Source: Hyposmocoma kahamanoa
Lineage: Eukaryota; Arthropoda; Insecta; Lepidoptera; Cosmopterigidae
Reading direction: 5' to 3'
DNA: 64,000 nt
NCBI RefSeq assembly: GCF_003589595.1
Contig: NW_020654748.1
Span: 7,780,237 to 7,844,236, forward strand
In this document: one piece after another, positions 26,763-58,621 of the stretch
Position numbering within the stretch: position 1 is the first letter of the stretch
How the letters are laid out: each line of letters starts with the position of its first letter
Program-made: the position numbers and the translations under genes
Notes under the pieces: model-generated
What the model was told of the DNA's origin: nothing
The model's database searches: none
The model's input: only the letters and a program-made list of their open reading frames with translations

Positions 26763-26990
26763 GATAATCTCAGTACAGAGTACTAAAAAACCCGAAAGTC
26801 ATTCATAGCCTAGTTTGCTACCATTAGAGGTGGAACATTTTCTTCAAATTTAAATGGGACCTCTACTGAGGTATCATTCAAATCGGTTCCAGAGTTATCG
26901 CGTAACATACATACAAAAAAATGCAGTCGATTTGAGAACCTCCTCCTTTTTTGAGGTTGGTTAGAAATATTATGTATTGCACATTTATAG
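26763..26990 (-). repeat. Dispersed repeat, GGAGGTT family
   Basis: Inserted in the copy B spacer; absent at the matching place of copy A. Confidence 0.6.
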
Positions 26991-27094
26991 CCATACCTAA
27001 TAATATTCCAGTGATATAAATGTCATGTTAAATTATATTAAACAGTAGTGCCGTTTCTGCACAACTGCGCAAATAGGAAGCTACTATATTTTGT

Positions 27095-32420: not shown

Positions 32421-32455
32421 ACGTTAATTTTCGTATTACATTGTAGGTACACACT

Positions 32456-33478: not shown

Positions 33479-34018
33479 TGTACGTGCTTACTAAACCACT
33501 GTCAGATGAGAACTGTCTATTGCATCATCAGATGAGAACTGTTATATTGCACCCTTAATGTATTCAGGGTTCGCTGCGTATACTTCACCCACAGGCTGCT
33601 TGTGTAAAAGTTTTGGCAATATAAGTAGTGAAATCTTTACATCTTTGGTGTAACGAGCAAACCTGTGGGCGAGCATATTACATCTAACAGACAGGGCCCT
33701 TCTCTCCCTCTCCATGTCGGCACTATCATGCAAGTTATCGGTTACCCAGTGACCCAGGTACTTAAATTGAGAGACACGACTTATCTCACTACCATAGAGA
33801 AACACCGGCGGCATAGTTCCAACAGAACCTGCCTTCGGCTTAAAAACTAGGAACTATTTTTCGTGTCATGGGTCCTTTGACCCCCGTTGATCGAAATTCA
33901 AAATGATAAAATTGAATACGATTCTAGTTTATAGGCCAATTCCATATGTCTGTGCCAGTTCCGTAACTCCGTTCGAAATTCGTCGAGCGAGCGAATCTTC
34001 CTTGTCATCCTCTTAACG

Positions 34019-34964: not shown

Positions 34965-35079
34965 GTGGTATTACAATTCAAAACATTTATTGATAATAAT
35001 GAAATTAAAATTCGATACTTGATTTTTTCAAGCCAGTCGATTTGGGTGCGTTTTAAAAATAATTGGATTATTTCTCGTC
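34965..35079 (-). CDS. Serpin copy C exon 10 (shared 3'UTR exon)
   Basis: Acceptor TATTTTACAG, then GACGAGAAATAATCC. Most cassettes already end in TAG, so this exon is 3'UTR; for the stop-less cassette at 40147 it adds DEK and a stop (TAA 35068-35070). A polyadenylation signal AATAAA lies at 34986-34991. Position 1 kb past the last cassette and conservation with 24560-24662 support it. The end is estimated. Confidence 0.6.
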
Positions 35080-38000
35080 CTGTAAAATAAAAATAAAGCG
35101 TTAGTGTCAAAATAATCAGTTACAGTAAAAGATTTTGGAGTAAATAAAAAAATAAGTTATTAATACAGTTTATTAATGTTTTCTTAAACTTTACGTAGGG
35201 GCCTCTTAGTAAACAAATGATTAGCAAAAAGACAAAAAAGAAGAAAGAAATAAATCTTAAACATTTCTATAACATATAGCATGCACTTTTCCAATATGCC
35301 GTTGTTATTGCAACAATTCCCCGTTGATATTGCATGCAAGTTGACACGTATAGCTTTACACTGTCGCCATTAGTTGAAAGGGCGCACGTGATATTTTTAC
35401 AAAAAAATTGTTATATGTATATATATAATATATAATTGTTATATGTGTATGCCGTGATCAGTAAATAATAGCCGCTGTCACTATTTTTATTTTTCCTACG
35501 TGTATGGTATGAAGTTACCGGAAGAGAAAAGAAGACATATTTCTAATATAATTTTTTTTACATATTTTCTCGGTTTTGACTTTTGGTCACAAGCGCCCTT
35601 TCAACTAACGACAGTGCATAATGAAAAGTATTATATGATTATCACTAATTACAGGTTTCTTACGGGTTGAAGACAACCCATGACTATGGAGCGTGTAACC
35701 GTTTCGAAATATCGGGAACATAAAAAGAAATGAGTAAGAAACTTGTAATTAGTGATAATAAACATTTAGTAAATAACAAAAGCCTTAAAATCGAAAGGAG
35801 TATTGTTAGTATGACGAAATGCGTGCAGAATAATTAATTATATAGTCGTTGCAGCGTGATGTAAAAGTATATTAAGCATTTGTATTGATAGCTCAGGAGT
35901 TTAAGAGACGCAGTGCCGTAAAGGCTGCGGTGGCATATAGAATAAACAACCATCAGAATACTGTAAATTAATGAAGTCTACCTGTTCGATGCAACCTATC
36001 GAACCCATCGAAACACAGCCCATAAAGCAATTTTCAAACACGAACATGCTTAACATTCAAAGGGAATCTTCTATCTTTACCTACGAAACGAACACTCCGT
36101 TAAAAAGAATGTTTTGCTGAGCTTTCAATATAAATATAAAGGCGTGGTCAGCGCGAAAAGTTACTCTTGGTTTCAAAGCACTTCCGAACATGATAATGAT
36201 TTCTGTAATAATATTGTTACGTGAAAAATCGAAATTGAAGCCATAAATGTGCCAACATTCGGAGGTATACAATAGGTTATTGGGAATTCGGGAACTCAAT
36301 ATCTTGGTCGAACTGATACAAACATTTTGGTAAAGTAAAAATATGATGGATGACTAAATTTGTAAATTCATGAAAATATTCAATGTACATATTATAGGTA
36401 GTTGACTAGCAATTCATGGATCAAAATATACGAAAATTTACGAAAGCACTGAAGCGCTTTGAATAAAATTCGATTTCAGAATAGAATGCTGCACTTTTTT
36501 TGACAGTAAAGCGAACAATTGGTCATTTGAAATTCTAAACTTCTAATAAGTTTCTTCTAGTAACTATACCAAGGCTTCTAATAAGGTATATTTAATCAAA
36601 TGAGTTGCGGATAAAACGTTTACAGTGTAAATTTGAAATAAAACCGCCCATGTAAGTAATTAATATGACTCCTAAGGCAAGACTACATTTTGAGAAACAA
36701 AGTTAGTACACAAGTCATAATTTCGTTTAGTCCAAAAACCTGCTGTACCTAAGATTGGAAAACCCCATCAAAGACAGCATTTCTCCCCACTTTCACCACG
36801 AAGAGGAATGGATGGTCCACTATGAACTCAGTGTTTTTTGATAGCGCAAAGCTTGCACCAGGACCGTAAAATACTGCAAAAATATTTTATTTATTTACAG
36901 TCAAAGTACCTAAGGGTGTTAGACGCCGTTAAATAGAGTGTTACTTTCTTCTTTGAGGATGAAGACAAACGAATGGTTTGCTTTAAATGTGGAGCCCTGC
37001 CTTAAGCTATTTAAGTTTATCATGAAATTTGAAAAAAATGATTGTGATGTCGCACATGAAACCAAATATTGTCCTAACTCAAAATTGTGGATGAGAAAAC
37101 ATAATTTGAAAATTTTAGGAAAAGACTAAATGGATTTTATTGCGAATAATGAGGTTATTTTTATTTATACATAATACTTGATTCTCAATTTATAAACGGG
37201 AATATCGAAATAATATAATATATTGGTTTCTTTCGGTATTTTTTTTTAATTTTCAAATCGTCTCTCTCAATTGCACAATTTTCAGTTAGGACAGTATTTG
37301 GTTTCGTGTGCGATGTATTATGATGAACATAAAAATTGGAAGAAGTGTTTCAGAATTCTTTGTTGATTAGCCCTGCATATTGAGTTGCTACCGAGTAACT
37401 TATTGGTTACAATCTTTTACTGATTACGATCATAGTTTTGTTTTTTTAGGCCAAAATATATATTTACAGGTAGATAAATAACAGAATATGAAGAAAATAT
37501 CTGTTTTGTTGTCCTTTACCATAGAAAAATGTTTTTTCTTTGATTTTGTAAGTTGTACACAAATACATAACTTAAAGACTATTAGGCATGAATATATTAT
37601 TGAAGGACGGCAATAGAGGGACTACAGAAGTGGTTAAACCTCGAAGATTGCGAAGGACAAAGCAGAATAAGCGACGTATTCAGAACGTATTAAGTATAAG
37701 TTCGTTAGCCGGTCAACTACACGCAGCAACCCGGCGTCAATAAATTCACAACAGCCTGGAAAACCCCATTAAAGACAATATTTAATTCTGCTTTTACTAG
37801 CTATAACAATGAGTGCCCTAATTAGAACTTGATGCTCCCATGTGGCATATAGCTCATATTAGCACCGTGAACAAAATTAAGAGGGAGCATGCCAAAAAAG
37901 TTTTGACGTTAGCTCCGCCCACATTTGTGAGACAAATATATGCCTGAAGTTCGCGTGACATGCGACAGGAGATGTTGAATTTTGCGCATTAAAAGTACCA

Positions 38001-41000
38001 AATTCGTTTTAGCGGAATAACTCTAAAACTAAGGGGATTAAAAAAAATCCGCAGTGACAGTTGTCGATCATGCATAAATACAATTAATTATCTAATTTTT
38101 GTCCTAATAACCTGTAGCATTTTGAGGATGAATCGAAAAAATGTGAAAATTAGAGGTCGTGATTTTTATCTATCGAGGAAACTTTATTGTTTTATGTTTC
38201 TGATTAGTGTCTATGCTTGAATATATCGTGTAGTTACTCATACAATATTTTATTTTTAACTTTAAATTGGATATACCCCTCTAAAATCAAATCGAAGATT
38301 AGGTATTTTTCCTCTGCTTTTAGCGCTAAAACAAATTTGGTACTTTTAATGCGCAAAATTCAACATCTCCTGTGGCATGTCACGCGAACTTATATTTATC
38401 TCACAAATGTGGGCGGAGCCAACGTCAAAACTTTTTTGGCATGCTTCCTCTTAAGTAGGTTTGAAAGAGAAGCAAAGCCCTTAATACCAGGATAGCATGC
38501 GTATTTTATGTCTAAAGAAAGTACCTAAGAACGATATATTCCGTTAAAGAATGTGTTATCTCCTTCTTTGAGGAAGAAGACAAAGGGACGGTCTGCTGTA
38601 AATTTGGTTTGTTGACGTATTACTGCACTTAAAGTTGCTATCCCGAATGCTGAAAATGACAATGGTGTTGCATAGGTCAACGTGATCGGCAGGCGTACTG
38701 AGTGTGATTAAATTATTTTGCTGGTGATTCCTGGATATTAACTGGCTGCCTAATTTCCTAATCCATAATTTACTACTGATCGCAGTTCCATGCATCTTGA
38801 TGAAAAATCTGCTTGCATAGATAAAAAAATAGCAATGAACGAATGACAAAGTCAAATGTAGTTATGGTCTGAATATTATGCTTTAAAAGTTTGATGAAAG
38901 TACCTATGGACGATATATGCCATTAAACAAAATGTTTTCTCCTTCCTTTAGGACGAATACAAACGGGTGGTCCGCTTTGAATTGATTTGGCCGAGGTAAT
39001 AGCGAGCTTGGTAAAACTGCTACAAATGCTGAAATTGCAAGGAATTGGACTAAATTGGCAAAAATAACGAATAAAAAAGGATCACGGTCATTTGTAATTG
39101 TATTTTTTTTTGTAGTAACGTATCCCATATGTGTTTCTATACGTTAGACCTAAGTTCCCTACGAAGCTTTTAACGGACTAGTTTGAGAGCTGTTTCTCAT
39201 TGAACAAAAAAAAAAGTCATTTAGTAAATATGATATTTATTAAATATGTTAGATACAAATGTAGTACTCGTAAAGTCATTATTTGGAAAATGACCGCAGA
39301 CTGATCGCAGTGGTAATTATAAGAAAAATATTGAAGAGAGAAAGAAGCATAGAAATACCTCAACAACTATAGAGGTAAAGATGCCTGTTAGACCGGCACA
39401 ATGTATTACCCCGTGCAAAATAAATATTTCTAATAACATGCTTTTATAGGCAAGATTACCTAAAAGTTAAAAACTCCGTTAAAGAGAATGTATTGTCCTC
39501 TCTTCAGTAAGAAGACGAACGAATGATTCGCTGTAAACTCTGCTTTCTGATACAGAACTAAGCTTTCTACGATAAAGACAGCTGGAATTATAAAGTTTCA
39601 TTGTTATTACTTTGTTTTGCTCAATAATAATACCACTAAAATAAGACGCGAATGTAAGATATGGAAAAGTCAAGTACCGCGTTATTTTTCTAACACATAG
39701 TTGTTAAAACTGAGAAAAAAACATCTACATACATAATTATGTATAGACAAATTTCATTTAATTCTGATGATCTTGGTTTAGAAATTATTGTCTAGAGACT
39801 AGCGAGATAATAGGAATAAACCTTTACAATGTTATATGTTAGTTTCACGCTACGCTTCTGGGCCTTGCTAAATGCATAATAGTTGCGACAAATGTATAAT
39901 TCTATCTAAAAAGGTTCAACGATGAGCAAAATCATATTAATTTAATGTGGTTGATGAGCGGTGATTCTCAATTTAGTTATTAAGTACTTTGGTCGTGGTT
40001 AATTTTAGTCATGTTTTGTATGGAACATAAATATCGTTGATATTTTTGTAAGGACAACTTTTTGATATTTGCTACATGTAACCGATGGAACACACATGAT
40101 GCAAGACACATGCTTTACTTTAAAGTATTTTATTTGTGTGAAGTACCAAATTTCGAAAAACTCCACTAAATATTATATCCTTTTTGAGCTTTAACACAAA
40201 TACAAAGGGGTGATCTGCTCGAAATTGTAGCTCGAGGAAGAAAGCCAAACCGCTTCGCGTTTCTACGAGTATTTCTGTAATTTAGAAAGGGATCCTGTTG
40301 AGAAATTTATGTTTTGAGAATAAAATTAATCTCTATAATAGCTGATATAACGCACTGACGTCAGCGTTCATTCTTCGTTTGATCATATGTTATAACGTAT
40401 TCCGACTCTGGAAAATGATTTCTTTATTTTTCTATTAGTGGTTATGTTGTAGTTTAGTTTTTTACTATATCTGGTTTGTGTTTATTAAAGTAAGTATAAA
40501 TTCTCTCTATCTCAACGTTAAATGCATTTTTGTAGCCGTATTTACTACATATTTTTAAAAGTTAAGTAAAGTTAACGTTAAATGTTCTTGTGTTACTTTC
40601 TAAAACAAATGTAACAGAACAGGTATTCGGTTTCAACGTCTGCTCCTAGGTATTCGAGGACACATATAGGTATATCTTATATTAAATACGCAACATTTTT
40701 TTTTCATTCAATATCTGTTTATATGTCAGTACAGCTTAAAGATTCATTCGAGACTGGACAATACCAGAAAATGCCATAACAACTATACTCATATTAACTC
40801 ATAAGGTGTAGTGTGAACTCCAAAGGCGTGTTAAAATGAACAAACCCGTCAAACCAAAGTAGGGTTGAAATGGTATAGCAAGATATTATAAGTTCAATTG
40901 CCAGCTCGAGTATTCTAAAGCACATAAATATTTACGGTCAAAATTGGGAAGCTATGACCCCGGTGATAACATTTCCGTTTAAAAGTGGACGATTCCCGTA

Positions 41001-44000
41001 AAGAGTGTAAATTATGTTGTCTTTAGCAAAAAGCCAAACGGGTGGTCTGCCTTGAATGTCTTTGATAAATTTGGAGGGAGGGAACGCGACTCGAAAAATC
41101 CTGAAAAATTAATTTAGTTTTTTTCTCAATCATATTACGTCTGTGTTTTCATTAGACATTTACTAAACTAAGCAGGAACAATTTCTAATAAAAATAATAA
41201 CTTTCGGCTACCAGTAGAGTGAAATAATTTCCCGCCTCTATGTAAAATGAAAAAAAAATCCATTCATTTTTCATCACTATTTGTCTTTTTTATAAAACTG
41301 AATAAAAAAATGTTAATTTATCTCTTTAAGACATGGTTGTATAATTCATGCAATTTTGTTAACAACAAATTTCCAAACTAGCACATACATTTATCATGCC
41401 TAAATGCTGCATTTTGATTATGTATCTACCTGCCCAAAATAATCAGTTCACGTTTATTAATTTTACTTTCTATTGACATATACCAATATCAACATAAAAT
41501 AAGTTCAATTGACAGGTCGACTATTGTCAAGCACATACATATGTATTTACGGTCACAACAGCGGAAACTGTGCCCCGGTGGTGATGTTTTCGTTTAAAAG
41601 AGTATTTACTATTCAATTAATTTACAGTATTCTGACGGTTGTTTATTCCATATGCCACCACAGCCTTTGCGGCACTGTCTCTTAAATCTTAGGCTATCGA
41701 TACAAATGCTTAACATACTTACACATCACGCTGTAACTACGAAATGTATAAAGACTGTATTCATTAAGTAGAGCTTTATGTATTAACTTGCATGTAATAT
41801 TAACGGAGAATTGTTGCAATAGTAGTAGAAAATTGGAAGAGTGTATGCCTTAATGTTTAAAATTTATTTATTTTTTCTTTTTATCTATTTGCTAATATTT
41901 TTTTACTAAAAGGCGTCTATGTAAACTTAAAGAAAATATGAATAAATTGTATTAAATAACATTTGTTACTACTCAAAATTTTTACTGTAACTGATTATTT
42001 TGAAACTAACGCTATAATCAAAATGCAGCATTTTAGCATGACAAATATATGTGATAGCTTTGATATTTGTTATTAAGATTAGCATGAGTTACATAAACAA
42101 CGATATATTAAAGAACATAAAATCAAAATTGTTTCATTCAGTGTTATCAACAAGACAACATTGCATACGTTATGTACATATTAATCTGTTAATGTATAGA
42201 TTTCATATTTAATTTACATTACGTGGGAAATTAATTTATGGTACTGGTAGCCGAAAGTTATTATTTTTATTGGAAATGTTCCTAGTTTAGTAAGGCGTAC
42301 CCAATGAAAATATAGACGTAGTGTGATTGAGAAAAAAAAAACTACATTAATTTTTCAGGATTTTGGGAGTCGCGTCCCTCCGAAGTTACCAAAGACATTC
42401 AAGGCAGACCATCCCTTTGGCTTTTTGCTCAAGACGACACAATTTACTCTCTTTGCGGGAATTTAAATATGTATAACAATAACGCTTTACGTCTCAACTT
42501 AAAATGCCTCTTTATAATGAGTCTGAAATGTGTATTTTTTAAGGAAACGTGTTTTTCACTAACTGCTAATAACAAAAACTGAAAACCTGACTGAACTAAA
42601 ATAATCAAGCAAGTTTTCCCCAAAACTATTCTCAGTAAATATCAAAAGTGAAACGATGCTAAGGTCATACCAACTTATTGATAGATAAATTTGTTATAAT
42701 TCAATATATCTTCCGATGAATATAAAGTCATCTTTATTTCTGATTATCTTTGTTGTGCAATCAATCAGTTACCAGTAACCATTTCTAAAAACATTTTGCA
42801 AAGAAATTTATTTTTTGTTTAAGTTAACACCAGCTACATTAGTTTCTCATGCGACAACTGTAGTACTTTTGTTCAACAGGTATTTTTTTTACAAAACAAC
42901 TTTAGACACATTTAAAGCTGTTTTCAAACATGAACATGCTTAACATTTAAATGGTATCTTCGATCTTTTACCTATTAAACGAACACTCCATTAAAAATAA
43001 TATTTTAATGGAGTTTAATGGACTCTTGGTAGTAATGCACTTCCATTCATGATAATGACCTCTGTAATAATATTGTTACGTTTATTATTAATCGAAATTG
43101 AAGCCATAAATGTACCAACATTGGAAGGTCTACGAATTCATGTACCTACTGTACTTTGGTTATTGGAAGTTAGAAACGGAATTCCAATAGCTAGGTTAAA
43201 GTGGTACAAACATTTTGGTAAAATGAAACTATGTCAATACATTACATTTTAAATTCCCGAAAATATTGAATAAACTGAATATACAATATGAATATTGAAA
43301 TTATTGAATACATTATTAGCCAAATCTACTACTACGAAGCTTATGAACAGACTTAAGAAGGAGTTCGCTAAAGTGCCTTGAATAAAATGCCGATTTTTCT
43401 TTCTTTTTTTTCTTGACTCTTCGCGGTCAGCGTTTCAGCTACTTACAAGGTTTAGAATTTTAGAATAGAATGCTGCAATGACAATTGTGAATCTTTGGCG
43501 CTGAATTTTTACTGTCATTCTTTTGACTATAAAACGAACAGTTGGTTATTTCGCCATTTTCACAAAGAGACAAAAATAAATACCGTACTTGAAAATTATG
43601 TACAGAGTTATTTTTGATTATCGTGTGAATTGAAAAAGGCAATATTTCTTGACGAATATTTCTGAAATTGAATGATGAATAATTATTTAAGTACATGGAA
43701 AATATTATTATGGTACTTTGAAGTAGAATGCTGCGCACAAAGCAAGATCTACAGTGCAAATTTGAAACAAAAAGACCACGAAATTAATATGACTCCCAAA
43801 AGCAAGAAAGATTGTAGTACTGATTGCAGTTCCATGCATTATCTTGATGAAAATTCTACTTGATGAACAATTAATCTGTTGAAATGACAATGTAAAATAC
43901 ATTTATCACCTGAATATTAAGCTTTAAAAGTTTGATGCAAGTACCTAGGCACGATATACGCCGTTAAACAGAATGTTTTTTCCTTCCTTCAGGACGAATA

Positions 44001-44642
44001 CAAACGGGTGGTCCGCTTTGAATTCACTTGGCCGGGTTATAGCAGCACTTGTGAAAACTGCTACAAATGCTGAAATTGCAAGCAATTGGACTAAATTGAC
44101 AAAAATAACGAAGGAAAAAAGAAAGCATGATAATAATTTTTGATTGTTTGTTTTTTTTTGTAGTAACGTATCCCAAATGCGCTCTACACGAAGACCTATG
44201 TTCTTTATGAAAATCTCAATGGACTGGTTTGAGAGCTATGATTTCCTTATAGACCAAAAAAATGTTGTTTTGTTAATATTATGTAGATTTATTATATTTT
44301 TTACTTATTACGCATTGATAGATATTTATTGAATATGTTAGACACAAATTATTTATTGTTCTTGTTCTTGTTCTTTCCACCTTAACAATACATTTGAAAG
44401 GGTAATTAAAGTAAAGAACATCGTACAGTGAAATTGCGAGGTGGAAGATTGGTGCCTAAACTACTGGACCTGCACTAAAGGTCACCAGGTATTCACCACT
44501 GGACCTCAATGATAGAATATTAGGAAAGTGATTATATGTGAATATTAGGAGTGAAAAGTAGGTATAATGGTTTAAGATATGTACAACGCGTCCGTGCATG
44601 TACATGTACATGCACTGTGTGTGTGTGTGTGTNNNNNNNNNN

Positions 44643-44690
<48 letters not shown>

Positions 44691-47600: not shown

Positions 47601-50600
47601 TGAAATTAATATGACTCCAAAAGCAAGAAAGAATGTAGTACTGATTGCAGTTCCGTGCATTATCTTGATGAAAATTCTACTTGATGAACAATTAATCTGT
47701 TGAAATAGTTTCATATCAAACGAACTGTCACAAGTGAGGCAAAAATCAAATTCATGTAGGCTAGTTTTAGTAGTAGGTTAATTTTCGGTTTTAGTGAATA
47801 TTTATATAAAAATACAAGTTGAAACGCGTTACTTCCTTGTGGAATGTGATGTTAGTATCTATTTTATGTTTGTCTGATGTATTTTTTTTTTGTATGTATT
47901 TTTACTCATTTACCGCACATTTCGTCATTTTTAACCAAAATTCTTGAGCTGTTTGCGGTGCAAGTTGACCTTGAGCAATGACGGCCCGCCCGCTCGTGTA
48001 GGCCCTTTGGGAGCGCTTTAATTTGCCTCACTTAGCGTGTGCGGACTAGGTTTCTATGCGTTATTAGTCTAAGTTTATCACCTGAATCTTAAGCTTTACA
48101 AGTTTGATGCAAATACCTAGGGACGATGTACGCCGTTAAACAGAATGATTTCTCCTTCCTTCAGGACGAATACAAACGGGTGGTCCGCTTTGAATTCACT
48201 TGGCCGGGTTATAGCAGCACTTGTGAAAACTGCTACAAATGCTGACGGCTTATAAAATTAATATGACTCCAAAAGCAAGAAAGAATGTAGTACTGATTGC
48301 AGTTCCGTGCATTATCTTGATGAAAATTGTATTTGATGAACAAATGTGTTAAAATGACAATGCAAAATGCAGTTAGCACCTGAATATTATGCTATAAAAA
48401 TTTTGATGAAAATACCTAAGGATGATATACGCCGTTAAACAGAATGTTGTCTCCTTTCTTCAGGACAAATATAAACGGGTGGTTTGCTTTGAATTCACTT
48501 GGCTGGGTAAAACTTGTTAAATATACTACAAATCCTGAAATTACAAGCAATTGGACTAAATTAATAAGTGGACTAAATTGAGAGAAATGTCATTAAAGTT
48601 TTGTACATAGTACTTTAATCAGTGTTATAATTCTGTACACTGATATTTATTGAGTTTCAAAAAAGAACATTGTATTTTTGCAAATTAAAATATCAAACTT
48701 GACACTACTCAAACGCTCTACTGCCTCCAGTAGTTAAATTGGCTTAAAGATCTTGCAATTGGGCCATAAACCTTCAATAAGAAAAAGGCAGTACATGGCC
48801 ACTTTTATTCTATCTCTTTGGTTTTTGTTTTGTAGCGTTTTTTTAGCTTTCGTCTAATGGAACGTTTGCCTACCCAATTATATGGGTAAACATTTATTTT
48901 TAAAAAAATGGGTTTGTTGTCATGGGTTGAACAAAACATACATTAAATACTGGTTGAGTTTCGTTATTTTATTTACTCGAACCCTCATTATGCAACCATT
49001 GCATAGAATCTTAGAGCATATAGGACGGGATAGGGATGATTTGTTTGCCACAATTTAATGGCCCAAAAATTATCCATATTCAGCTTCTACTTGAAATAAC
49101 AAAATGTATCATATTTATAGCTTTTAGTGAAAACTACTTGAACACAAGAGTGATGGAGTAGTCTTAATGTCAATATTAATTCATTTTACAGTATTATGTT
49201 GAATTTTATATGAATTCACTTCAAGTAATAAGAGTTGTGCAGATATGTAGGTAAAATAGCTGTGTCTCTCTGTTGGTAGTTATGACGTGCTGTAAGAAAT
49301 GTATCGATGTTTTGAATTTCTGGATTCCAACTAGAAGTAAACTCGAAGATTTATAATCTCGAAAACCGATTTATAATAAAACCGTTATGCATTCAGGGGA
49401 TTTTGGTTGTTTATTACAGAGAAAAGATTAACTTAGTTTGTTTTGTAATATTCCCAAAATACCTAAAAAAGTACATTTGGGATTACAAAAATTCGAGCAA
49501 ACATTACTTCGGGCAAATGTATTTTCGGACTTCTGATTGATAACTTCAAACAGTAAAACGAATACAACAATATTTTGTTAGTTATTTATTACTAAGATTT
49601 AATAAAAAGTCATTTTAAAAATAAGATTAATAAATCAACTCTATAGTTTTTTTGTTCTAAATCTAAATATTTCAATCGCTTGAGCATATCTTGTGTAGGA
49701 TAAGGACAATTAGCTATTTGGTTATTTTTATTGCTTTTGTAATTTATTTGTATTCTATGCATGTACTCGTATATGTACTTTTTATTTTTTCTTACAGTAT
49801 GTCATGATTTATGATGATTTATATTAAACAATTACAATTTATTTTCATTATTTATAATTTATTACATTATTATTTAATATACAATATGACGGAAAAGTCA
49901 ATTTGAATAAACTTCGTTACATAACCTGTCGATAAAAATAGGAGCTAATAAAGCGCGTCGCTTCTCTATAACGAAAAAAACAGCGTCCATGAAGTACTGC
50001 ATTTTTTAATCTATAGTTGCCTGTTAGTAATTAGGGAACTTCATAGGCATGCTTATGTCAAATATTCGAATGTTTTCAAATATTTTTTTATGTATTCGTT
50101 GAATTGAATCAATGTGATCATTGTGAAAAAAATGTCATAAAATAGAAAATTTGCAATTAATGTAAAAAATAGGCTTATGTATGGATGTAATTCCACCCTT
50201 GGCTAGACTGGATGCAGCAAAGATTTTTTTGCAAGTTTGTATAGCGCAAGACGACATGTTTCGTGGAGTACTTGATGCGGTAAATTCGATATTGGAAATG
50301 AAAAAACATCGATTTGAAAGTAGTGTTCATTGTGCGATAGTTGTTTTGTGCTTGTACCTTGACAGAGGGGATTGCCTATCGATGATGCCTCCAGTCCTAT
50401 ATGCTCTAAGCATAGAATACTTTTCAGCTCAGTGGCGAGTACCAATAATAGAATTTTCATTCAGAAACAGAAAGGGTCTTTTAATAAACGGTTTATGAAA
50501 TCATAATTGACAGATTAAAGTACAGGAGCAGAACAAGTAAATTACGACATTGCTACTCCAATATCTATGTTGTACAACAAAGAAAAAAATATATCTACAT

Positions 50601-53600
50601 ACATTTATTCATAACAATGATCTTGTTCTAAAAGTGATTGTCTAGCGTGATAATAGGAATGAACCTTAACAATGTTATATGTTAGTATTACGTTACGCTT
50701 CTGGACCTTTTGAACCTTCTCGTGTACATAAATGCATAGTGCAAATTAATTACGATAAATGAATAATTGTATCTAAAAGTTATTGAACCTTGATGAACAA
50801 AATCATATTAATTTAATGTGGGTGATGAGCGGTTAACCAGAATTTAATATCTTAAGTAAGTACTTTGATTATGGTTAATTTTAATCGTGTTCTGTATGGA
50901 ACAGAAATATCATTGATGTTGTTGTAACTAACTTTCTGATATGTACTACATGTAACCGATGGAACACACATGATGCAAGACACATGCTTTACTTTAGAGT
51001 ATTTATTTGTTTAAAGTACCTAATTCCCAAAAACTCCGCTAAATATTACATCCTTTTTGAGCTTTAGGACAAATACGAACGGGCGATCTGCTCGAAATTG
51101 TTGCTTGAAGAAGAAAACGAAACCACTTCGCCTTTCTACGAATATTGCTGTAATTTAAAAAGAAATTCTGTTGAGAAATTTTTGTTGTGGGAATGGCGAC
51201 TAGTTTATTAATATCTAAAATAGAAGATGTTATTTCTTTTGCGCTCTGACGTCAGTGTTCATTGTTTATTTGGCCGATTCTTGCAAAGTATTCGCAATCG
51301 GACGAAAAATTTCGTTTTTATTTTTGTTAATACAAATTTGGTTATAATCTAGTCAATTTTATGCATATGGAACTACATACATAATTATTTTTTTTTATAA
51401 TATCCCATTTTAATATCTCAATACTAAACGTATTTTTGTAGCAGTAATTACTAAAATATTGATAAAATATTTATTTTCATTTCACATACTTTTTTTTTAT
51501 TTATAGTCTCATTTTATACATGTACTTTACTATATATTTTGTATGTATTCTATTAGTGTATCAACATTTACTTAAAATATGTAAGTATATGTATTCGTAC
51601 GTATATTTGATATAATAAACCTATCCTTGTAATTATTGAGTATGTAGATTTCAATTTCATGATTTATTAACTTTTTTTGCCAATCCAGGAGCCAACTTTC
51701 CTATTCTTCTTATTCAAAGGATAGTTGGAAGAAATCCCGTTAACGTTTTAATTTTTTGTAAAAATTTGTAAATTGTTTTGTTGTACAATAAAGTGTTTAC
51801 ATACATACACATTTGTACAAGTAAATAAAGCTAACGTTAAATTTTCTTATCCTCTTATGTTACTTTCTACAACAAATCTAATAGAACAGTTGTTCGGCCT
51901 CGACGTCTGCTTCAAGGTAATTACATCTTATTTCAAATTACGCAATATTTTTTTTTTAATTCAAAATCAGTTCATATATCAGTAAAGCATAAAGATTCAT
52001 TCTAGACTGGACAATGCCATAAAGAAAATGACATAATAACTATACTCATATGAACGCATACGGTGTAGTGTGAACTCCAAAGGCGTGTTAAAATGAACAA
52101 ACCCGTTAAAAAGCGTGTTGAAATGGTATAGCAAGATATTATAAGTTCAATTGCCAGCTCGAGTATTTTAAAGCATATAAATATTTACGGTCAAAATTGG
52201 GAAACTATGACCCCGGTCAAAAATTTCCGTTTAAAAGTGGACGATTCCCGTAAAGAGAGTAAATTACGTTGTCTTTAGCAAAAAGCCAAACGGATGGTCT
52301 TCTTGAATGTCTTTGGTAAATTTGGAGGGAGAGACGCGACTCGAAAAATCCTGAAAAATTAATTTAGTTTTTTTCTCAATCGTCTGTGTTTTCATTAGAC
52401 ATTTACTAAACTAAGCAGGAACAATTTCTAATAAAAATAATAACTTTCGGCTATCAGTAGAGTGAAATAATTTCCCGCCTCTATGTAAAATGAAAATGAA
52501 ATCCGTTCATTTTTTTTCACCATTATTTGTCGTTTTTATAAAACTGAATAAAAAATGTTAATTTATCTCATTAAGACATGGTTGTATAATTCATGCAATT
52601 TTGTTAACAGCAAATTTCCAAGCTATCACATACATTTATCATGCAAAAATGCTGTATTTTGATTATGTAACTACCTGAATAAAATAATTAGTTTATTAAC
52701 GTTTATTAATTTTACTTTCTATTGACATTTAATTGTATAAGATCCCGTCAAAAAGAATATTGTTCCCTTTCATAAGAAAGAATACGAAAGGATGATTCGC
52801 AATAAAAGTGGCGGGACTGGTAGTGTACCCGCTATAACCGATTGCAAATTCTGAAAATAGAATAAAAACTGTGCCACGTAGTGAAAGATACGTAGTAGTT
52901 AACCTGTTTCACGAATTATAAGCTAACGGAATATTTATGCTAGGGAAAGAATTAAAACCTTATAGTCAATGATACACAAGGTGTTTTAAGCTATATAACC
53001 GCTAAAGCTTTTCGTATTTTAGTAATTTGAATACGTCATGAGTTTCGAAGTAAAAAACATAAAACTAAGTATTTCTACAGACTACGATATTGTCAAAAAA
53101 TAATTGATCAAATTTCACTGCAAATTATTACACAATTTTTTTTTTAAATTATCAACAATCCCTTAAACTGGTTTTCATAACAATGGCCGGGCGCTGCCAC
53201 TTCTTGATTGCAACGTTCCGGCAGCACTCTAAATGCGTGTTGTACCTCAAGTGACTCATTGAGCTTTCAAAAAGTATCTTGCAATACTATTGTAAAAACA
53301 GGCGAATAGAAAAGACTGTTAATGCATAATAACTGCAATACATCTCCAAGAAATATATGAAACGAAGAAAATACCCAATTAAAAAAATTACACGTTTGGA
53401 AATAATGGTAGATACGACCCCTACGACCATTTTCTGTTTCACTGTCAACTCAACGAATAAGTAACCAGTCTTCTACTACCAACGCTTCAACTTGTGCAGT
53501 AAAGCAATCCCAATTGATGTTTCAAGAACTTCAGGTAAGGTAGAGGCTATTCTAAAATACTATTTATTATGTCTGTCTTTAAGGACAATCAAAACTGGGG

Positions 53601-56600
53601 GATTCACTTTAAACTCTATAGACTGTAGAAATATAAAATCGTCCACTTTGAAATAATTTATATGCCATCATTTATAATAATTACCTACTCCATAAAAAAT
53701 AAAAAAATAAAAAAAACACTATTTTACTACTTCATGATCATTATTTACAACGTATATTGCAATAAAGAAATAAACAATGAAGCCATAACAAGTGGTACAG
53801 CAATTCAAAAATAAAGGAAAAACTATTTAATGAATTGACGATACAGAAGGATTCCACAAAATTATCGCAACCTGAGATGAAATACACAAACCAAGACTTT
53901 CATGTACATTTATGTACTGTTTTTCCACTAATGTACAATTATAACAATATCAACAAAATACCTATTGCATATATTTTCCTGAAAGTAAAGTTGTACGTCC
54001 AATGTTTAAAGCATAACAAAACGGCTTATCTGCTATAAATCATGCTGTAAGGGGAGGAATCACTACTAATGCTGAACCTACTGTACCTTCAAATTCTGAA
54101 ATGAAATACCGTAAACATACTTTTAATTTTTTACAAAAATCAGCACGTTACACTATACCAAATTTTTTATATAGGTGTACCCACTCACATTTAAAGATAT
54201 ATCGAAAATAAGATGACATTAATGTTAACGAAATAAATAAAAAATCGGAAACAAAAACAGATAGCCCCTAAAAATAAATTCGAATAAAAAAAAATTGGTT
54301 TTGTTACTTTCGGCACTAAATAACATGAAAATTTGCTAAATTTGCTAATCTTTTGACGATGACTGGTGGTTATGATGTAAACAGATCTACAGTAATATTT
54401 GATGTTCCATTAAGTATTGTTGATTTTTTTGTAAAATTGTTTAGACTATTGAATTATTTCCTATATAAACGGGATTACATTACTTAAATATACTTTAATA
54501 TGTGTATCAAACTGAACAAGGATACAGCTTTCGTACTTACTACGTGAATATAGTTACGAGTATATACGACTGGTATTATAGAACAAAATGAATATTGCAG
54601 TATGTAGTATATATAGAATAGTAGTATTTTTTGTCTATTGCGCTGGTGTAACTTATGCAGGATGGTGCAAATGTTATAAGTACCTAATCACTTAGAATTT
54701 GATTTTTACATATCTATAATTCAGTGTTTGGTATAAATCCTCCAACGAAATTTGTGGGAATAAATATGAGATTGTGCAGTTTTCCGCAATTCATAATTGA
54801 ATAGAGGAAGAAGTGTTAAAATAAATTGTGGAATAACATGATATTGACTTAAAAGGTACTTTTAGTGCATTAAACGTAAGTTCGGTAAATTTCATTCTCA
54901 TTAACTTCAGGGATCCCTCAAAAAGATAATATGGTTTGTGACATGAAAACATAATTATTCTATATTGCACTTACCACCATATTTAATGTTATAAAAATAC
55001 TAAACATGCCTTTTCTGTGCGACTGCGTAAATAAGGAAATTGATGTAATTGTATCGATAGTAGTTTAAAGGCTCGGTTTAGACTTCTCCGAACGGGCAAA
55101 TTCATTTAAGACGATGCAACTGTCCATAGACTTAGGGTAGGTAGGTTCTCAGTTTAATTTAGTCTAGTCTAGTCTTAGGTGCTAGTCAAAGAGTAAGAGT
55201 AGAGGAACACAAATCTCGTGGCTTTACATGAAGACAAGAATTGTCTAATCTTAAAAGTTAGAAGATTGTCATATCCAAATAGAAAAAAGCTTACCGTTTG
55301 CAGCAGCTGCTTCAGCACCTTCTTCATTGACTTCAATGAATGCCTTTTGGATGGCTTTACTTACAAACAAATTTCCTTCGCCCTTTAACAAACGACTCAG
55401 TTGGGCTTGTTGAGGGTCGAAAACACGTTTCACATCCATCTGAAAATATTTAATTCATGAATTTAATTTAATTGTCACGTCATGTTCGTAATGCATTTAT
55501 ACTTTTCATTGGAAGACCAACATGTACTTTCTATTTAGATTATTTTTGACGAAAAGACGAAAACTGCCATTTATTTATTGCACATACAAGTACGTGCAGC
55601 TCATGTCTTTTGTTTAAATGTTTGTTTGTTATTGGTACTTAAGTTTGCTGCGTTCTTGTGTTATAAATGTAATTNNNNNNNNNNCGATAAGAAAATTTAT
55701 ATTATTTGTAAATAATGCCTTTAATCGGTATTGTACGCTTCTATGGATAAATAACATTCACCTATCCAAACCATAATATAATAAACCATATAATACTTAT
55801 GTATTGACACTTGGTATTAAAAGAAAATCCTACACTGTGGAGTATTACTAACAGTGACTGATGCTTATGTTGCATTCATAAGAACCATTTTGACATTTTC
55901 ACGACTCCCGCGGTCGAGTGGCTTGCACATCGGTTTTCATGGTGTCGCCATCTCTGAAGTTCCAGGTTTGAACTTCTTTCGGGGATCGCCCCGGCCGAGT
56001 CAATGTAATTTAAAAAAAAACTTTTCTATATTGTCTCGGGTGTGGATGCTTGTGGTCGTCGTCGTTGTTTCAGATTTCCATAAAACAAGTGCACTTATTT
56101 TGATATGTGTATGATCTAATATTTAATATTAGATCTGATATGATCTGGGAGTGTCCAACATTTAATATTTATAGGAACTGTAAATAGGTTGTCGTCGTCT
56201 ACTTATGTCCTGGTTTGATTTAGGTGCCTAGGTAAATTGGCTAGTTATGACAGTTACATTATTGTCAATGCTTACCTTTAGAAGGACGTCTTTAAGATCA
56301 GTCTTGGTTTCAATCTTGAATTTGGGCAAAGAGACGTTGACATCAAAAGTGTACATCTTTGATGTGGCTGATTCCAAGGCGGAAGGATCTTTAAGTTTGT
56401 CTACGAGAGCCGCAATGCCGTCAACTTCTTTAGGTAGAATTACTATGAAAGAGGCTTCACCTCCTTCGTAAGGCATCTCCAACAACTAAAAGTGATGTTT
56501 ATGGAAGTAAGTATTATAAATCAGTATAAAAATATTTTATATAAAATAATACTAGGAATTAGAGAGATGGTGATTTTACATAACTCAAGCTGATAACGGG

Positions 56601-58621
56601 TATAATGTTCTTTAAACTTGCTTAGTTATATTACCTGAGCATTCAACTCGTCGCTATCAGCATATTTGAAGTCGCCTTGTACGTGCATCATTGGAACTTT
56701 GATTGTTTTGTCTTTGGAGACGTGGAAGTCTTCGTCCTTCGTGCTTTCCTTTTTGAAAGGGCTGTCCCATTTACCCTGAAATTTATAAACACATATAAGA
56801 ATAATTGTCAGTGAAATAGAATGATGCCAATTGGAGTTTATAAATATACATAATTTATAAAATCTATTACAGTCAGATATTTCCTTTTCATTTGTACACC
56901 GAGCACTTGAATCTTTTCTATACTTTGTACCTTGACTTACCTTGATTTACCTTGAAATAAATTTACTTGGCTTACCTTGAAATAAATAGCGTTGACGAGT
57001 ACACTGCGGGTGTCGGAACTTAAGTCATCAGCTGACACTAAATCTTTGATACGGTTGTTGGTTTGGTCTTCAACCTGCGAAGGAGTACGATTTTTAATAC
57101 ACGCAGCAATTTCAAACGACAAACATTTATTAGATATTGTTTAGAAAAGGATGGAACTGTTTACCCAAGTATTGATTTCCTTTGCTGTTTCCGTGCTCTT
57201 CGTGAAATCGACATTCTTCACTTCAGAGTTGAAGATATCTTTGGTGATCGCAGAAAATTCAGGATTCAATTCGGAACCATCAGCAACATATATTTTGCTA
57301 GCTGTTTTGAGCTCGACACCTTTCACTGATTTCAGCTCTTCATTCAAACGAGGAAATACAAGTTTTGTCTAAAAAGGAAAAAACGACTGGTTAATCGAGA
57401 TCGAGTTGACAGGTGTCGTTTTGTGCCAACGCACAAAAATTCTGACATGCTTCGACCATTGGTAATAAAATGTGAGATCGTCTTTCATTTAAATGCATCA
57501 AACTTGTCAGAATTTACTTACAACGTTATCGTTGGGCAGACCAATAGCCTTGAGAAGCTCGTCATGGGATGCGCCCTCCGACGCCAAGCTAAGTTGAGCC
57601 AGAGGAGTCAACACAGAGAACGCAGACAATACCACACTTTTATCCGGGTTGCTCTTTACCACTTCCTGCAATATAAAAAGCTATTTTTATATCTTTACAT
57701 GAGTATTTATTTATAACGAAATATTAGAAGAAATTTGAAAAGATATAATATCTGCAACAACTTCAAAAGAATGCAGTCTATAACTGCAAGTTAAATATAC
57801 TATAGGTGCTTTTTCGTAATGGACCATTGTGTTCTACCTCCTTATGGGTAATATGTTTTTCAAATATTTTATCAAGAGTAGAAATTTCTGAGAAATACTA
57901 ACTAAAATTTCTGTTACTGTTTCTGAAAATTTGTAATTTACTTTGTGGTACAATAAAGTATTTAAATAATAATAATAAAATTCCGTAGTACCAACAGGAA
58001 CAAAATACAGGTAATTTTGGGAACGTCGCGTCGCTTAGCTATTCTAATTATTTTCAAACCTGCGTAGAACAATTTACAGAATCTCGTTTCAACGGTTGGG
58101 AAATTAAATTTTCTTTGCAGCATGATATTTTTGTAAGATACGAAGTTTAGTTGATAGATGATTGAATGATTGAACGAGCTTACATTTGATGTGTTTTTTA
58201 ATTAGTGTCAATTTTTCCTATACGTATGTAATACTCACCTTAAACGAAAAATAAATTGAATGTGCTAATGCCATTTTGCCCGTGACACGCTGATACATAT
58301 TGAGAAAAAAATACACGATCATCGAACTATGACTTACTTGGATATATGTTTAATTAAACAAGTGTCATTTGTAATTCCCTTTAAAATGAAGAGATGATCG
58401 TGTATTTTTTTCAATATGTATCAGCGTTTCACGGGAAAAATGGCGTTAGTACATTCAATTTATTTTTTGTTTAAGGTGGATATAACATCTATATATGAGC
58501 GAAAAGAAGTAAAGACTTACGGAAAACATTCTTGCTGTAAATTGGTTATTTCCCTCTCTAAGGAGATTGTCCAGTTGCTTCGGATCTTGTTCGGCCATGA
58601 CTGCAGCCACTAGAACCGATA
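34965..58621 (-). CDS. serpin-1: Serpin-1-like gene, copy C (gene-level entry; exons 2-8, ~21 exon-9 cassettes, exon 10)
   Basis: Secreted serpin whose RCL is chosen by alternative splicing. Exons 2-8 (58621-55295) encode about 350 residues that join in frame: SVLVAAVMA signal core, [44 protein letters not shown], and a classical inhibitory hinge [10 protein letters not shown]. Then 19 kb carry 12 open exon-9 cassettes and 9 broken or fragmentary ones, and finally exon 10. Each full protein would be about 390-400 residues, normal for serpins. Exon lengths 144/204/99/141/210/145 equal those of copy A exactly. Mutually exclusive use is inferred from matching phase (two open cassettes cannot be joined in frame because each ends in a stop) and from the well-known Manduca serpin-1 gene. 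Exon 1 not located. Confidence 0.92.
34986..34991 (-). terminator. Polyadenylation signal AATAAA, copy C
   Basis: In exon 10, about 90 nt after its acceptor. Confidence 0.5.
35360..35615. repeat. MITE with TIRs
   Basis: ACTGTCG(CCA)TTAGTTGAAAGGGCGC at the left and its inverse GCGCCCTTTCAACTAACGACAGT at the right; AT repeat inside. Confidence 0.6.
35637..35760. repeat. Foldback element
   Basis: ATTATCACTAATTACAGG...TAAGAAACTTGTAATTAGTG; about 24-bp inverted arms with one mismatch. Confidence 0.55.
36081..36202 (-). CDS. Copy C exon 9 cassette 21 (open, predicted P1 Gly)
   Basis: 122 nt after [50 protein letters not shown] then GTAAAG. Family iii, with cassettes at 42972 and 46681. Last cassette before exon 10. 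P1 could be Phe if the loop is one residue out of register. Confidence 0.85.
36749..36873 (-). CDS. Copy C exon 9 cassette 20 (open, predicted P1 Ala)
   Basis: 125 nt after [49 protein letters not shown] then GTAC. Ala at P1 suggests an elastase-like target. No close relative in the array. Confidence 0.85.
36910..37026 (-). pseudogene. Copy C exon 9 cassette 19, degenerate
   Basis: [20 protein letters not shown] and NGV, then TAA three codons before the usual TAG. No acceptor or RCL can be placed at the expected distance. Confidence 0.55.
37750..37870 (-). pseudogene. Copy C exon 9 cassette 18, remnant
   Basis: Only the end (ATTGTCTTTAATGGGGTTTT, compare VFNGVF) is recognisable; frame destroyed upstream. 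Confidence 0.4.
37881..38450. mobile_element. MITE with TTAA target site (piggyBac-type)
   Basis: 570 bp, inverted arms of about 135 bp starting GAGGGAGCATGCCAAAAAAG and ending in its inverse, flanked by TTAA at 37877-37880 and 38451-38454. Non-coding. Arms include GCTCCGCCCACATTTGTGAG. Confidence 0.8.
38525..38649 (-). CDS. Copy C exon 9 cassette 17 (open, predicted P1 Leu)
   Basis: 125 nt after [48 protein letters not shown] then GTAC. Family i; closest in copy A is the cassette at 120. Confidence 0.87.
38904..39028 (-). CDS. Copy C exon 9 cassette 16 (open, predicted P1 Pro)
   Basis: 125 nt after [54 protein letters not shown] then GTAC. Very well-kept body. P1 Pro would be unusual; Leu at the next position is the alternative. 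Confidence 0.88.
39460..39581 (-). CDS. Copy C exon 9 cassette 15 (open, predicted P1 Glu)
   Basis: 122 nt after [50 protein letters not shown] then GTAATC. Family iv. The loop is one residue shorter before the Ser than in families i-iii. Confidence 0.84.
40147..40274 (-). CDS. Copy C exon 9 cassette 14 (open, predicted P1 Arg, stop codon lost)
   Basis: 128 nt after [48 protein letters not shown]. Arg-Ser is the classic bond of inhibitors of trypsin-like proteases. The usual TAG is TTG here, but the donor GTACTT is kept. Splicing to exon 10 adds DEK and a stop; unspliced read-through would stop at 40120-40122 after eight more residues. Confidence 0.85.
40979..41100 (-). pseudogene. Copy C exon 9 cassette 13, nonsense
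   Basis: 122 nt, in phase: [29 protein letters not shown], then TAA. The sister at 42359 has CAA (Gln) at this place, so the stop is a C-to-T change. No donor after the final TAA. Family v. Confidence 0.8.
42359..42466 (+). pseudogene. Copy C exon 9 cassette 12, inverted, frameshifted
   Basis: The only cassette on the plus strand. TTTTTCAG acceptor, GFWESR, then a shift, then [22 protein letters not shown], stop. It is the mirror copy of cassette 13 in an inverted duplication (40979-42466), so it cannot be spliced into the gene. Confidence 0.8.
42972..43061 (-). pseudogene. Copy C exon 9 cassette 11, internal deletion
   Basis: [15 protein letters not shown] then stop: about 35 nt encoding the ADHAFIFIL core are missing. 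Family iii. Confidence 0.75.
43945..44069 (-). CDS. Copy C exon 9 cassette 10 (open, predicted P1 Thr)
   Basis: 125 nt after [54 protein letters not shown] then GTAC. Its first 30 residues are identical to those of the cassette at 48117. Family i. Confidence 0.88.
44620..44690. repeat. (GT)n microsatellite with assembly gap
   Basis: (GT)n broken by ten N at 44633-44642. Confidence 0.9.
44931..45052 (-). pseudogene. Copy C exon 9 cassette 9, nonsense
   Basis: AVFVVESLA then TAG (CTG/Leu in sister 39460), followed by [11 protein letters not shown] and VFNGVFQ without the final stop or donor. Family iv. Confidence 0.78.
45908..46135. mobile_element. MITE, 228 bp, 8-bp target duplication (hAT-type)
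   Basis: Ends CATTGACTTACAAATAAATG and CATATAATTGTAAGTCAATG are inverted; ATTAATAT is duplicated at 45900-45907 and 46136-46143. The paralogous empty site is near 42795-42815. Sister at 27530. Confidence 0.85.
46203..46312. mobile_element. MITE, 110 bp, GTAC target duplication
   Basis: Inverted ends with AAGCTTGACAC/GTGTCAAGCTT cores. GTAC flanks both sides (46199-46202, 46313-46316). The paralogous sequence at 42855-42875 (CTGTAGTACTTTTGTTC) lacks it. Confidence 0.8.
46335..46618. other. Insertion of unknown class
   Basis: Absent from the paralogous stretch 42880-42920. Ends not clearly inverted. No frame of interest. Confidence 0.4.
46681..46808 (-). CDS. Copy C exon 9 cassette 8 (open, predicted P1 Gly)
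   Basis: 128 nt after [52 protein letters not shown] then GTAAAA. Family iii; a basic patch RPRQR lies on the prime side. Confidence 0.85.
47168..47212 (-). repeat. Penelope-like terminal-repeat fragment
   Basis: Shortened version of the motif at 3306 (GAATCGTC, stem II collapsed), between cassettes 8 and 7. Confidence 0.5.
47709..48055. repeat. MITE-like insertion in a cassette flank
   Basis: Absent in the paralog at 43880-43905. Contains inverted GTGAGGCAAA/TTTGCCTCAC near its ends. Confidence 0.5.
48117..48241 (-). CDS. Copy C exon 9 cassette 7 (open, predicted P1 Thr; suspect acceptor)
   Basis: Reads [44 protein letters not shown] then GTATTT. A duplication joint falls exactly at the acceptor: instead of the pyrimidine-rich GCAATTTCAG it has TAAGCCGTCAG preceded by purine-rich DNA, so use is doubtful. 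Confidence 0.75.
48416..48534 (-). CDS. Copy C exon 9 cassette 6 (open, predicted P1 Thr)
   Basis: 119 nt after [52 protein letters not shown] then GTAT. Family i, with the shortest P' side. Confidence 0.87.
48980..50180. other. AT-rich interval inside the array
   Basis: No cassette signature, no recognised repeat. Confidence 0.4.
50181..50498 (+). CDS. Unrecognised open frame, 105 codons
   Basis: Starts [19 protein letters not shown], ends [10 protein letters not shown], stop. It lies on the strand opposite to the serpin, between cassettes 6 and 5, and its composition is more coding-like than its surroundings. No family recognised, no signal peptide, no splice partners. It may be a chance frame or a captured gene fragment. 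Confidence 0.25.
   Translation: MDVIPPLARLDAAKIFLQVCIAQDDMFRGVLDAVNSILEMKKHRFESSVHCAIVVLCLYLDRGDCLSMMPPVLYALSIEYFSAQWRVPIIEFSFRNRKGLLINGL
51020..51147 (-). CDS. Copy C exon 9 cassette 5 (open, predicted P1 Arg)
   Basis: 128 nt after [50 protein letters not shown] then GTAC. Arg-Ser at P1-P1' with a second Arg at P2: a trypsin-like or furin-like/clip-protease target is plausible. Family ii; unlike cassette 14 it keeps its stop. Confidence 0.88.
52231..52350 (-). pseudogene. Copy C exon 9 cassette 4, frameshifted
   Basis: Direct copy of cassette 13 (GFFESR start) with a small deletion before HPFG and a stop in the same place. Confidence 0.78.
52729..52850 (-). CDS. Copy C exon 9 cassette 3 (open, predicted P1 Tyr)
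   Basis: 122 nt after [48 protein letters not shown], stop TAA. No GT donor directly follows the stop; AAAGTAAAAT 14 nt on is the nearest candidate. Tyr at P1 suggests a chymotrypsin-like target. Confidence 0.8.
53567..53640 (-). pseudogene. Copy C exon 9 cassette 2, remnant
   Basis: [14 protein letters not shown] then stop; core recognisable, RCL gone. Further-decayed matches at about 4430-4480 and 26430-26480. Confidence 0.45.
53962..54095 (-). pseudogene. Copy C exon 9 cassette 1, one nonsense codon
   Basis: 134 nt after TCATTTCAG, in phase: [49 protein letters not shown] then GTAT. Only the TGA spoils it. Its body (IADKPF, LLSGKY) is the most divergent in the array, and it is the first cassette after exon 8. 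Confidence 0.72.
55295..55439 (-). CDS. serpin-1: Serpin copy C exon 8 (hinge exon)
   Basis: 145 nt: [45 protein letters not shown], then G|GTAAGC. The small-residue run at P14-P9 marks an inhibitory serpin. Phase-1 end feeds all cassettes. Confidence 0.93.
55675..55684. other. Assembly gap (10 N) in intron 7
   Basis: Run of ten N. Confidence 0.99.
55895..56060 (+). repeat. tRNA-derived SINE, family S4
   Basis: Head CGGTCGAGTGGCTTGC (A-box-like) and CCAGGTTTGAACTTC (B-box-like), then a GGTCGTCGTCGTTGTTT tail region. In intron 7 of copy C. Confidence 0.65.
56276..56485 (-). CDS. serpin-1: Serpin copy C exon 7
   Basis: 210 nt: [20 protein letters not shown] ... [14 protein letters not shown]; acceptor TTTTAG, donor AAG|GTAAGC. 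Confidence 0.93.
56635..56775 (-). CDS. serpin-1: Serpin copy C exon 6
   Basis: 141 nt: [47 protein letters not shown]; acceptor ATTTCAG, donor CAG|GTAATA. Confidence 0.93.
56976..57074 (-). CDS. serpin-1: Serpin copy C exon 5
   Basis: 99 nt: [20 protein letters not shown] ... VLVNAIYFK; acceptor TTCGCAG, donor AAG|GTAAGC. Confidence 0.93.
57165..57368 (-). CDS. serpin-1: Serpin copy C exon 4
   Basis: 204 nt: [54 protein letters not shown]; acceptor TTTTTAG, donor TGG|GTAAAC. Confidence 0.93.
57522..57665 (-). CDS. serpin-1: Serpin copy C exon 3
   Basis: 144 nt: [48 protein letters not shown]; acceptor ATTGCAG, donor GTAAGT. Confidence 0.93.
58521..58621 (-). CDS. serpin-1: Serpin copy C exon 2 (signal peptide core and helix A)
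   Basis: 101 nt (2 + 99), acceptor TTTTGCAG, donor [18 protein letters not shown], then [24 protein letters not shown]. Signal cleavage is expected after AVMA (inference). Confidence 0.9.

Follow-up and report, generated by a model that had tools for sequence, protein, structure and literature searches.

Background

In the serpin gene-1 of Manduca, a variable exon 9 provides the reactive-centre loop and the C-terminus after a common body. Clusters of alternative exons that are used one at a time are also known from Dscam1, in whose exon 6 a docking site pairs with a selector located before each alternative exon. To judge by its title, Hegedus et al. 2008 (Gene 418:15) deals with how the serpin-1 exons expanded differentially among Lepidoptera, which is the same subject as that of the locus described here. 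In one article (PMC10671500), Manduca sexta serpin gene-1 is credited with 14 isoforms and the serpin-1 of Bombyx with 4, while serpin1 of Cydia pomonella has ten exons, with the differences confined to the ninth and with six isoforms confirmed by RT-PCR. Another study (PMC10513286) describes PpSerpin-1 of Pteromalus puparum, in which alternative C-terminal exons follow a hinge with an extra G and give 21 C-terminal forms; it also reports C-terminal alternative splicing in 192 of the 731 insect serpin genes that belong to one clade, with a high turnover of exons across insects, and a negative correlation between alternative splicing and gene copy number.

Here we describe a locus from the moth Hyposmocoma kahamanoa, located in a 64,000-nucleotide stretch of contig NW_020654748.1 (positions 7,780,237 to 7,844,236 of the forward strand, assembly GCF_003589595.1), which we call the window. 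With a probability of roughly 93%, we regard it as the gene of a secreted inhibitory serpin of the lepidopteran serpin-1 type, with swappable exon-9 cassettes. According to this reading, a common body, which comprises exons 1-8 and reaches past the hinge, would be spliced to one of about 10-11 usable exon-9 cassettes, each of which would supply its own reactive-centre loop, C-terminal strands and stop codon and would then join a shared 3' UTR exon 10. The predicted isoforms would trap different haemolymph serine proteases by the usual serpin suicide mechanism, and we infer that they inhibit in this way and act in immunity. The array has grown via duplicated blocks that comprise cassettes together with their introns, and nearly half of the cassettes have died since.

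Results

The common body

The gene in question, which we call copy C, lies on the minus strand. Its exons 2-8 are intact and in frame, with AG and GT at the splice sites of 7/7: exon 2 (58521-58621), which encodes the end of the signal peptide and the N-terminus, exon 3 (57522-57665), exon 4 (57165-57368), exon 5 (56976-57074), exon 6 (56635-56775), exon 7 (56276-56485) and exon 8 (55295-55439). At the end of exon 8, the serpin hinge is followed by a single additional G (a phase 1 donor), and the variable exon starts right behind the hinge with this G carried over. The 3' UTR exon 10 (34965-35079, the 3' boundary being that of the earlier note) starts at 35079, preceded by TTTTACAG, and contains AATAAA at 34991; its first codons read DEK-stop if entered in frame. 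With exons 2-8 and 10 found for copy C and exon 1 seen in a second gene, copy B, the serpin-1 gene plan is present. A loose exon-1 pattern had two matching places in the window, of which 47755 falls inside the copy C array and 22498-22480 is the exon 1 of copy B; no exon 1 for copy C was located in the window.

The Pfam Serpin domain (PF00079) is matched with 370 bits by the NCBI protein whose sequence includes the body of copy C. Among the solved structures in the PDB, those closest to the window's own protein are 1SEK and 1K9O, both of Manduca serpin-1 isoforms, and the ten-residue hinge of copy C, which is of the inhibitory type, is identical to theirs. The domain score, the nearest structures, the hinge-plus-G junction and the NCBI models that join at least seven cassettes to this body uphold the earlier note's assignment of the locus to the Manduca serpin-1 type. 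On the other hand, the term "combinatorial" used there is misplaced, because just one position is variable, with about a dozen isoforms.

Inventory of the exon-9 cassettes

The copy C array extends from 55294 to 35080. We searched it with a profile built from 14 cassettes of the window, 11 of which belong to this array, and the scores of these 11 are circular because the same cassettes went into the profile. It revealed 19 places with at least 12.5 bits and one with 9.0 bits (37794-37756), whereas five mononucleotide shuffles of the window gave no score above 6.2 bits. One further, faint place (53566-53631, minus strand), possibly a relic, was seen only in the translated search (tblastn E 0.90). 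The total of 20 recognisable cassettes and one faint one agrees with the previous count of about 21. Cassettes are named below by their first base.

Ten cassettes are fully canonical, with an AG acceptor, an open frame, a TAG stop and a GT donor, and all are on the minus strand: 51147 (51020-51147), 48534 (48416-48534), 48241 (48117-48241), 46808 (46681-46808), 44069 (43945-44069), 39581 (39460-39581), 39028 (38904-39028), 38649 (38525-38649), 36873 (36749-36873) and 36202 (36081-36202). The polypyrimidine tract of 48241 has been altered by a rearrangement. Two other minus-strand cassettes are open and atypical. In 40274 (40147-40274) the stop codon has changed to TTG, followed by GT, while 52850 (52729-52850) ends with TAA followed by AT and has lost its splice donor; a duplicated block begins at its 3' end (52731). 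All 12 open cassettes have an AG acceptor and a length of 2+3n (119-128 bases), and a 40-codon frame would be open by chance with p 0.045 at the present base composition.

Eight cassettes are dead. Cassette 54095 (53962-54095) has an in-frame TGA after 18 residues and keeps its acceptor and its TAG/GT end; in 52350 (52237-52350) the frame set by the acceptor departs from the serpin frame, which itself contains a stop; 45052 (44931-45052) has an in-frame stop and now ends with TAT/GT; 43061 (42972-43061) has lost its middle part and contains stops; 41100 (40985-41100) has an in-frame TAA; 37794 (37756-37794) is a 3' fragment (the place with 9.0 bits; tblastn E 0.058); and 37002 (36910-37002) shows no recognisable loop in the acceptor frame and an internal stop, with the TAG/GT end retained. 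These seven are on the minus strand, while the eighth, at 42335-42470, is an inverted, frameshifted copy on the plus strand that has retained the acceptor sequence. The earlier note had placed all open cassettes on the minus strand and given them a length of 2+3n and an AG acceptor, which holds for the corrected set. Its number of 12 open cassettes is also right, but only because two errors cancel each other: 54095, with its in-frame TGA, had been included, and 48241, which is open, ends with TAG/GT and corresponds to an NCBI isoform (X3), had been missed. The description of the open cassettes as complete applies to 10 of the 12, but not to 40274, which is without its own stop, nor to 52850, which is without a donor.

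Two inverted repeats lie in the array. The first, a large one at 37870-38461 between cassettes 38649 and 37794, has arms of 68 and 71 bases that are 97% and 92% complementary, and looks like a small hairpin transposon. The other, interrupted one (40992-42462) comprises four arm pairs and contains one dead cassette in each orientation.

NCBI isoform models

The translation of copy C exons 2-8 is contained exactly in seven H. kahamanoa NCBI proteins, named antichymotrypsin-2-like, which share an identical body and differ in their C-termini. Isoform X1 uses cassette 51147, X3 uses 48241, X4 uses 38649, X6 uses 39028, X7 uses 36202, X8 uses 39581 and X9 uses 48534. The copy C body is therefore joined to at least seven cassettes in these records, which are models rather than reads and may be partly computed predictions. 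All seven use canonical cassettes (0/7 a dead or atypical one), and 5/12 open cassettes are outside these models (52850, 46808, 44069, 40274 and 36873). Isoforms X2 and X5 are probably inside the X1 cluster, because that cluster stands for three member sequences. Thus, the suggestion that this set of loops may be undescribed has to be narrowed, as the loops are partly recorded already as NCBI isoforms. In the open-access literature, no title among the matches listed describes the present locus, which does not establish its absence from print, and the word "serpin" is absent from the main text of one paper on the H. kahamanoa genome (PMC11373647).

A second gene and a remnant array

Copy B and its array are located downstream of copy C, and the array runs off the window. 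Exons 2-8 of copy B, between 13632 and 5738, are intact and, exon by exon, 72-88% identical to those of copy C; its exon 1 (22498-22480) encodes MKLILT, has the donor GTAAGT and joins in frame to exon 2. Of the copy B cassettes in view, 2411 is dead (in-frame stop), another at about 1250 is also dead, and 238 is canonical. A further copy B cassette (480-604, minus strand) is open and ends with TAG, with the donor changed from GT to AT; like 52850, it has thus lost its donor while remaining open. The NCBI product P0008 corresponds to copy B with cassette 238-120, and P0009 and P0010 are two further paralogues, each named isoform X2. A longest contig of equal length (24,679,600 bases) is listed for all ten NCBI products, which suggests that they lie on one chromosome.

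Between copies C and B we found the remnant of a third, body-less array (24525-27080, minus strand). It comprises intron stretches that lie between 27080 and 26143 and are related to those of copy B, a shared spacer (26099-25970), a dead cassette (25853-25732) and, from 24662, a copy of exon 10 that has the same acceptor as that of copy C, begins with GATGAGAAATAA and reads the same DEK-stop. The next 260 bases after 24662 contain neither AATAAA nor ATTAAA. Body exons belonging to this array, sought by translated search between 34.9 and 26 kb, were not found there; the only match, with E 0.65, lay inside a LINE reading frame and was dismissed.

LINE elements of the kind found here are known to carry a Baculo_FP domain. 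The region between copy C and the remnant array contains such a LINE-like element (30018-33487, minus strand), with an 801-aa frame in which a reverse transcriptase domain scores 113 bits, preceded by a 343-aa frame that matches Baculo_FP domains. Interrupted LINE-like frames are also present in the first intron of copy B (16722-18692, minus strand; reverse transcriptase domain with 81 bits for 16722-17309). In its intron 2 there is a degraded DDE transposase (11160-12057, minus strand), mariner-like by eye, of which the part tested (11160-11546) matches DDE_3 with 23.4 bits, under the curated cut-off of 28.6. A search of the whole window against Rfam gave nothing at the gathering score.

A stop codon inside the splice donor

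In 10/10 canonical cassettes of copy C the TAG stop stands directly before the GT of the donor, and therefore the final AG of the stop codon also serves as the exonic bases of the donor: two functions are packed into five bases. The same TAG/GT is present in 6/8 other ends that we examined among dead, remnant and copy B cassettes (54095, 37002, 25853, 2411, about 1250 and 238), namely in 5/7 that are not live and in the live copy B cassette 238; the two that deviate are 604 (TAG/AT) and 45052 (TAT/GT). Altogether, the stop, the donor or both have been lost in 4/20 cassette ends examined (40274, 52850, 45052 and 604 of copy B). Cassette 40274, with its TTG, would run into exon 10 and read Leu-Asp-Glu-Lys-stop. 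For 52850 we considered the role of a terminal exon with its own poly(A) signals (52707 and 52697), which was not adopted because the 20,215-base array contains 84 occurrences of AATAAA or ATTAAA and because the bases of these signals belong to the duplicated block that starts at the end of the cassette. The start of this block at the stop of 52850 is the likely cause of its missing donor.

The presence of a stop at the end of each canonical cassette would have a simple consequence: whichever cassette directly follows exon 8 would fix the protein, even with splicing that is less than strictly exclusive. Two cassettes joined in series should still give a protein with the first loop only, and transcripts of this kind, which the earlier note had named as a refutation, would not count against the model at the protein level.

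Growth, decay and selection

The array contains direct duplicates: 52731-51806 and 41482-40546 are 87% identical, 45609-44888 and 40137-39411 86%, 48245-48074 and 44073-43902 96%, and 47706-47211 and 43885-43393 81%, the duplicated blocks ranging overall from about 70 to 96% identity. It follows from these coordinates that several blocks hold cassettes together with intron. Cassettes 52350 and 41100 and the inverted copy 42335 form a related trio, in which all are dead.

To compare loops (the first 18 alignment columns) with the C-terminal part, we pooled 4 of 6 close pairs, two of these four sharing 44069. The ratio of nonsynonymous to synonymous differences is 30:10 in the loop and 20:17 in the C-terminal part, a contrast that is not significant (Fisher p 0.061). 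For the pairs outside the pool, the counts in the loop and the C-terminal part are, respectively, 0:0 and 4:0 (44069/48241) and 9:4 and 3:4 (48241/39028). Although not significant, the direction of the pooled counts is consistent with a constrained frame bearing loops that diversify or are relaxed, and loops may change faster than the remainder of the cassette. In the C-terminal part of the four pairs, 17 differences fall in 62.1 synonymous sites and 20 in 219.9 nonsynonymous sites, about three times as many per synonymous site.

The reactive loops

P1 was assigned by register from alignments to the Manduca structures. By this register, P1 is Arg in 51147 and 40274, Thr in 48534, 48241 and 44069, Ser in 52850 and 39581, Gly in 46808 and 36202, Pro in 39028, Leu in 38649 and Ala in 36873; P1' is Ser in 10/12 open cassettes and in 68/109 proteins of other species. 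From these residues, the targets are likely to include trypsin-like, chymotrypsin-like and elastase-like enzymes, and the specificity of some loops appears obscure. Gly, Pro and Ser at the register P1 are not expected in strong inhibitors, and hence P1 may be a different residue in some loops, or these may not be inhibitory.

Kinship of the loops was assessed with 109 of the 110 other-species proteins that are among the best 120 of 5938 matches, one having been dropped as it lacks the motif. Against shuffles, 4/12 loops have an other-species relative at p <0.01 (52850, 44069, 48241 and 38649, the loop of the last resembling one common to other moths and butterflies) and 2/12 at p about 0.02 (48534 and 36873); with a smaller set, from which 20 of the 120 proteins were dropped, p is 0.055 for 52850 and 0.040 for 48534. 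For the six other loops, no other-species relative was found among the 109 proteins, and two pairs of them, 51147/40274 and 46808/36202, are mutual nearest neighbours in the array.

Discussion

Three readings that differ from ours concern the fate of the cassettes and the integrity of the window. The array could be mainly a graveyard, in which most of the open cassettes are recently dead or unused and only two or three are spliced in. Such a view draws on the 8/20 recognisable cassettes that are broken, with the faint one besides, on the early decay visible in 52850 and 40274, and on the near duplicates 44069 and 48241, whose four differences all change amino acids of the C-terminal part, with no synonymous one among them. 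However, at least seven cassettes are used by NCBI models, ten keep the frame, acceptor, stop and donor jointly (where 40 codons would be open by chance with the low probability given above), and the C-terminal differences of the four close pairs are about three times commoner per synonymous than per nonsynonymous site; we therefore consider a graveyard unlikely. Also unlikely is a multi-gene cassette system, in which arrays would be shed from their bodies (one of them being now body-less, with its own cassette and copy of exon 10) and exchanged as blocks, copy C transcripts might reach the exon 10 copy at 24662 or the cassettes of copy B, and the choice would be first-come, via the stop in the donor. 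We count the lack of AATAAA and ATTAAA within 260 bases of 24662 against a run-on of copy C transcripts to that exon. An origin of the two bodies and three arrays from unmerged haplotypes, as an artefact of the assembly, is scarcely credible. The window was indeed scaffolded, as revealed by 30 N in short runs, but each of seven exons differs by 12-28% between copies B and C, far above the allelic level, and separate NCBI products exist for copies B and C and for the two further paralogues.

The manner in which a cassette would be chosen is a different matter. An element in the intron behind exon 8 of copy C (53432-53567, minus strand) has a relative in copy B (4429-4279), and the latter has one in the remnant array (26418-26291), which makes one copy in each of the three arrays. 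By analogy to Dscam exon 6, this element could be a single docking site for which selectors before each cassette compete by RNA pairing. What speaks for such a role is that the C-B alignment of the element (69% over 151 bases, rising to 88.6% in a 44-base core) is the longest in the first 2.4 kb after copy C exon 8, the next one spanning 38 bases, and that the copy B version matches the remnant array too. Nevertheless, copy B and the remnant also align in the flanking intron (72% over 399 bases), and thus the sequence may persist by common descent alone. Moreover, the duplex energies between the element and the 250 bases upstream of 15 cassettes, admittedly a weak method, clearly beat 60 shuffles in 1/15 (46808, z -3.3, the single case with z below -2), and no pairing site common to the 15 cassettes was evident from them. 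The role of a docking site thus appears unsupported, and we regard it as very doubtful.

The locus is a further, partly NCBI-annotated example of the well-known moth serpin-1 kind, and its dead cassettes and clustered arrays are a useful detail and no new system. The serpin-1 arrays known so far gain a twelve-loop example from an unusual lineage of moths, and since dead cassettes are preserved in it, the birth and death of exons can be read directly. Moreover, H. kahamanoa alone has several paralogues that bear isoforms or arrays, a case to weigh against the negative correlation between splicing and duplication stated in PMC10513286.

Like Manduca sexta serpin gene-1, which also provides the nearest PDB body (1SEK, 1K9O), the Hyposmocoma gene has a variable exon 9 after a common body. 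It differs from it in species and loops, and in being followed by the remnant array and by another full copy of the body that has its own array. Compared with the six isoforms of Cydia pomonella serpin1, there are 10-12 usable cassettes in Hyposmocoma; in Plodia, the NCBI isoforms among the matches listed are numbered up to X22. The junction, with the variable exon of copy C joined behind the hinge with a carried-over G, resembles that described for Pteromalus puparum PpSerpin-1, although the latter is a wasp gene. Finally, the locus shares with Dscam1 the array of alternative exons with predicted single use, but it has one cluster, at the 3' end, its canonical exons each carry their own stop, and the search found no clear docking-selector signal.
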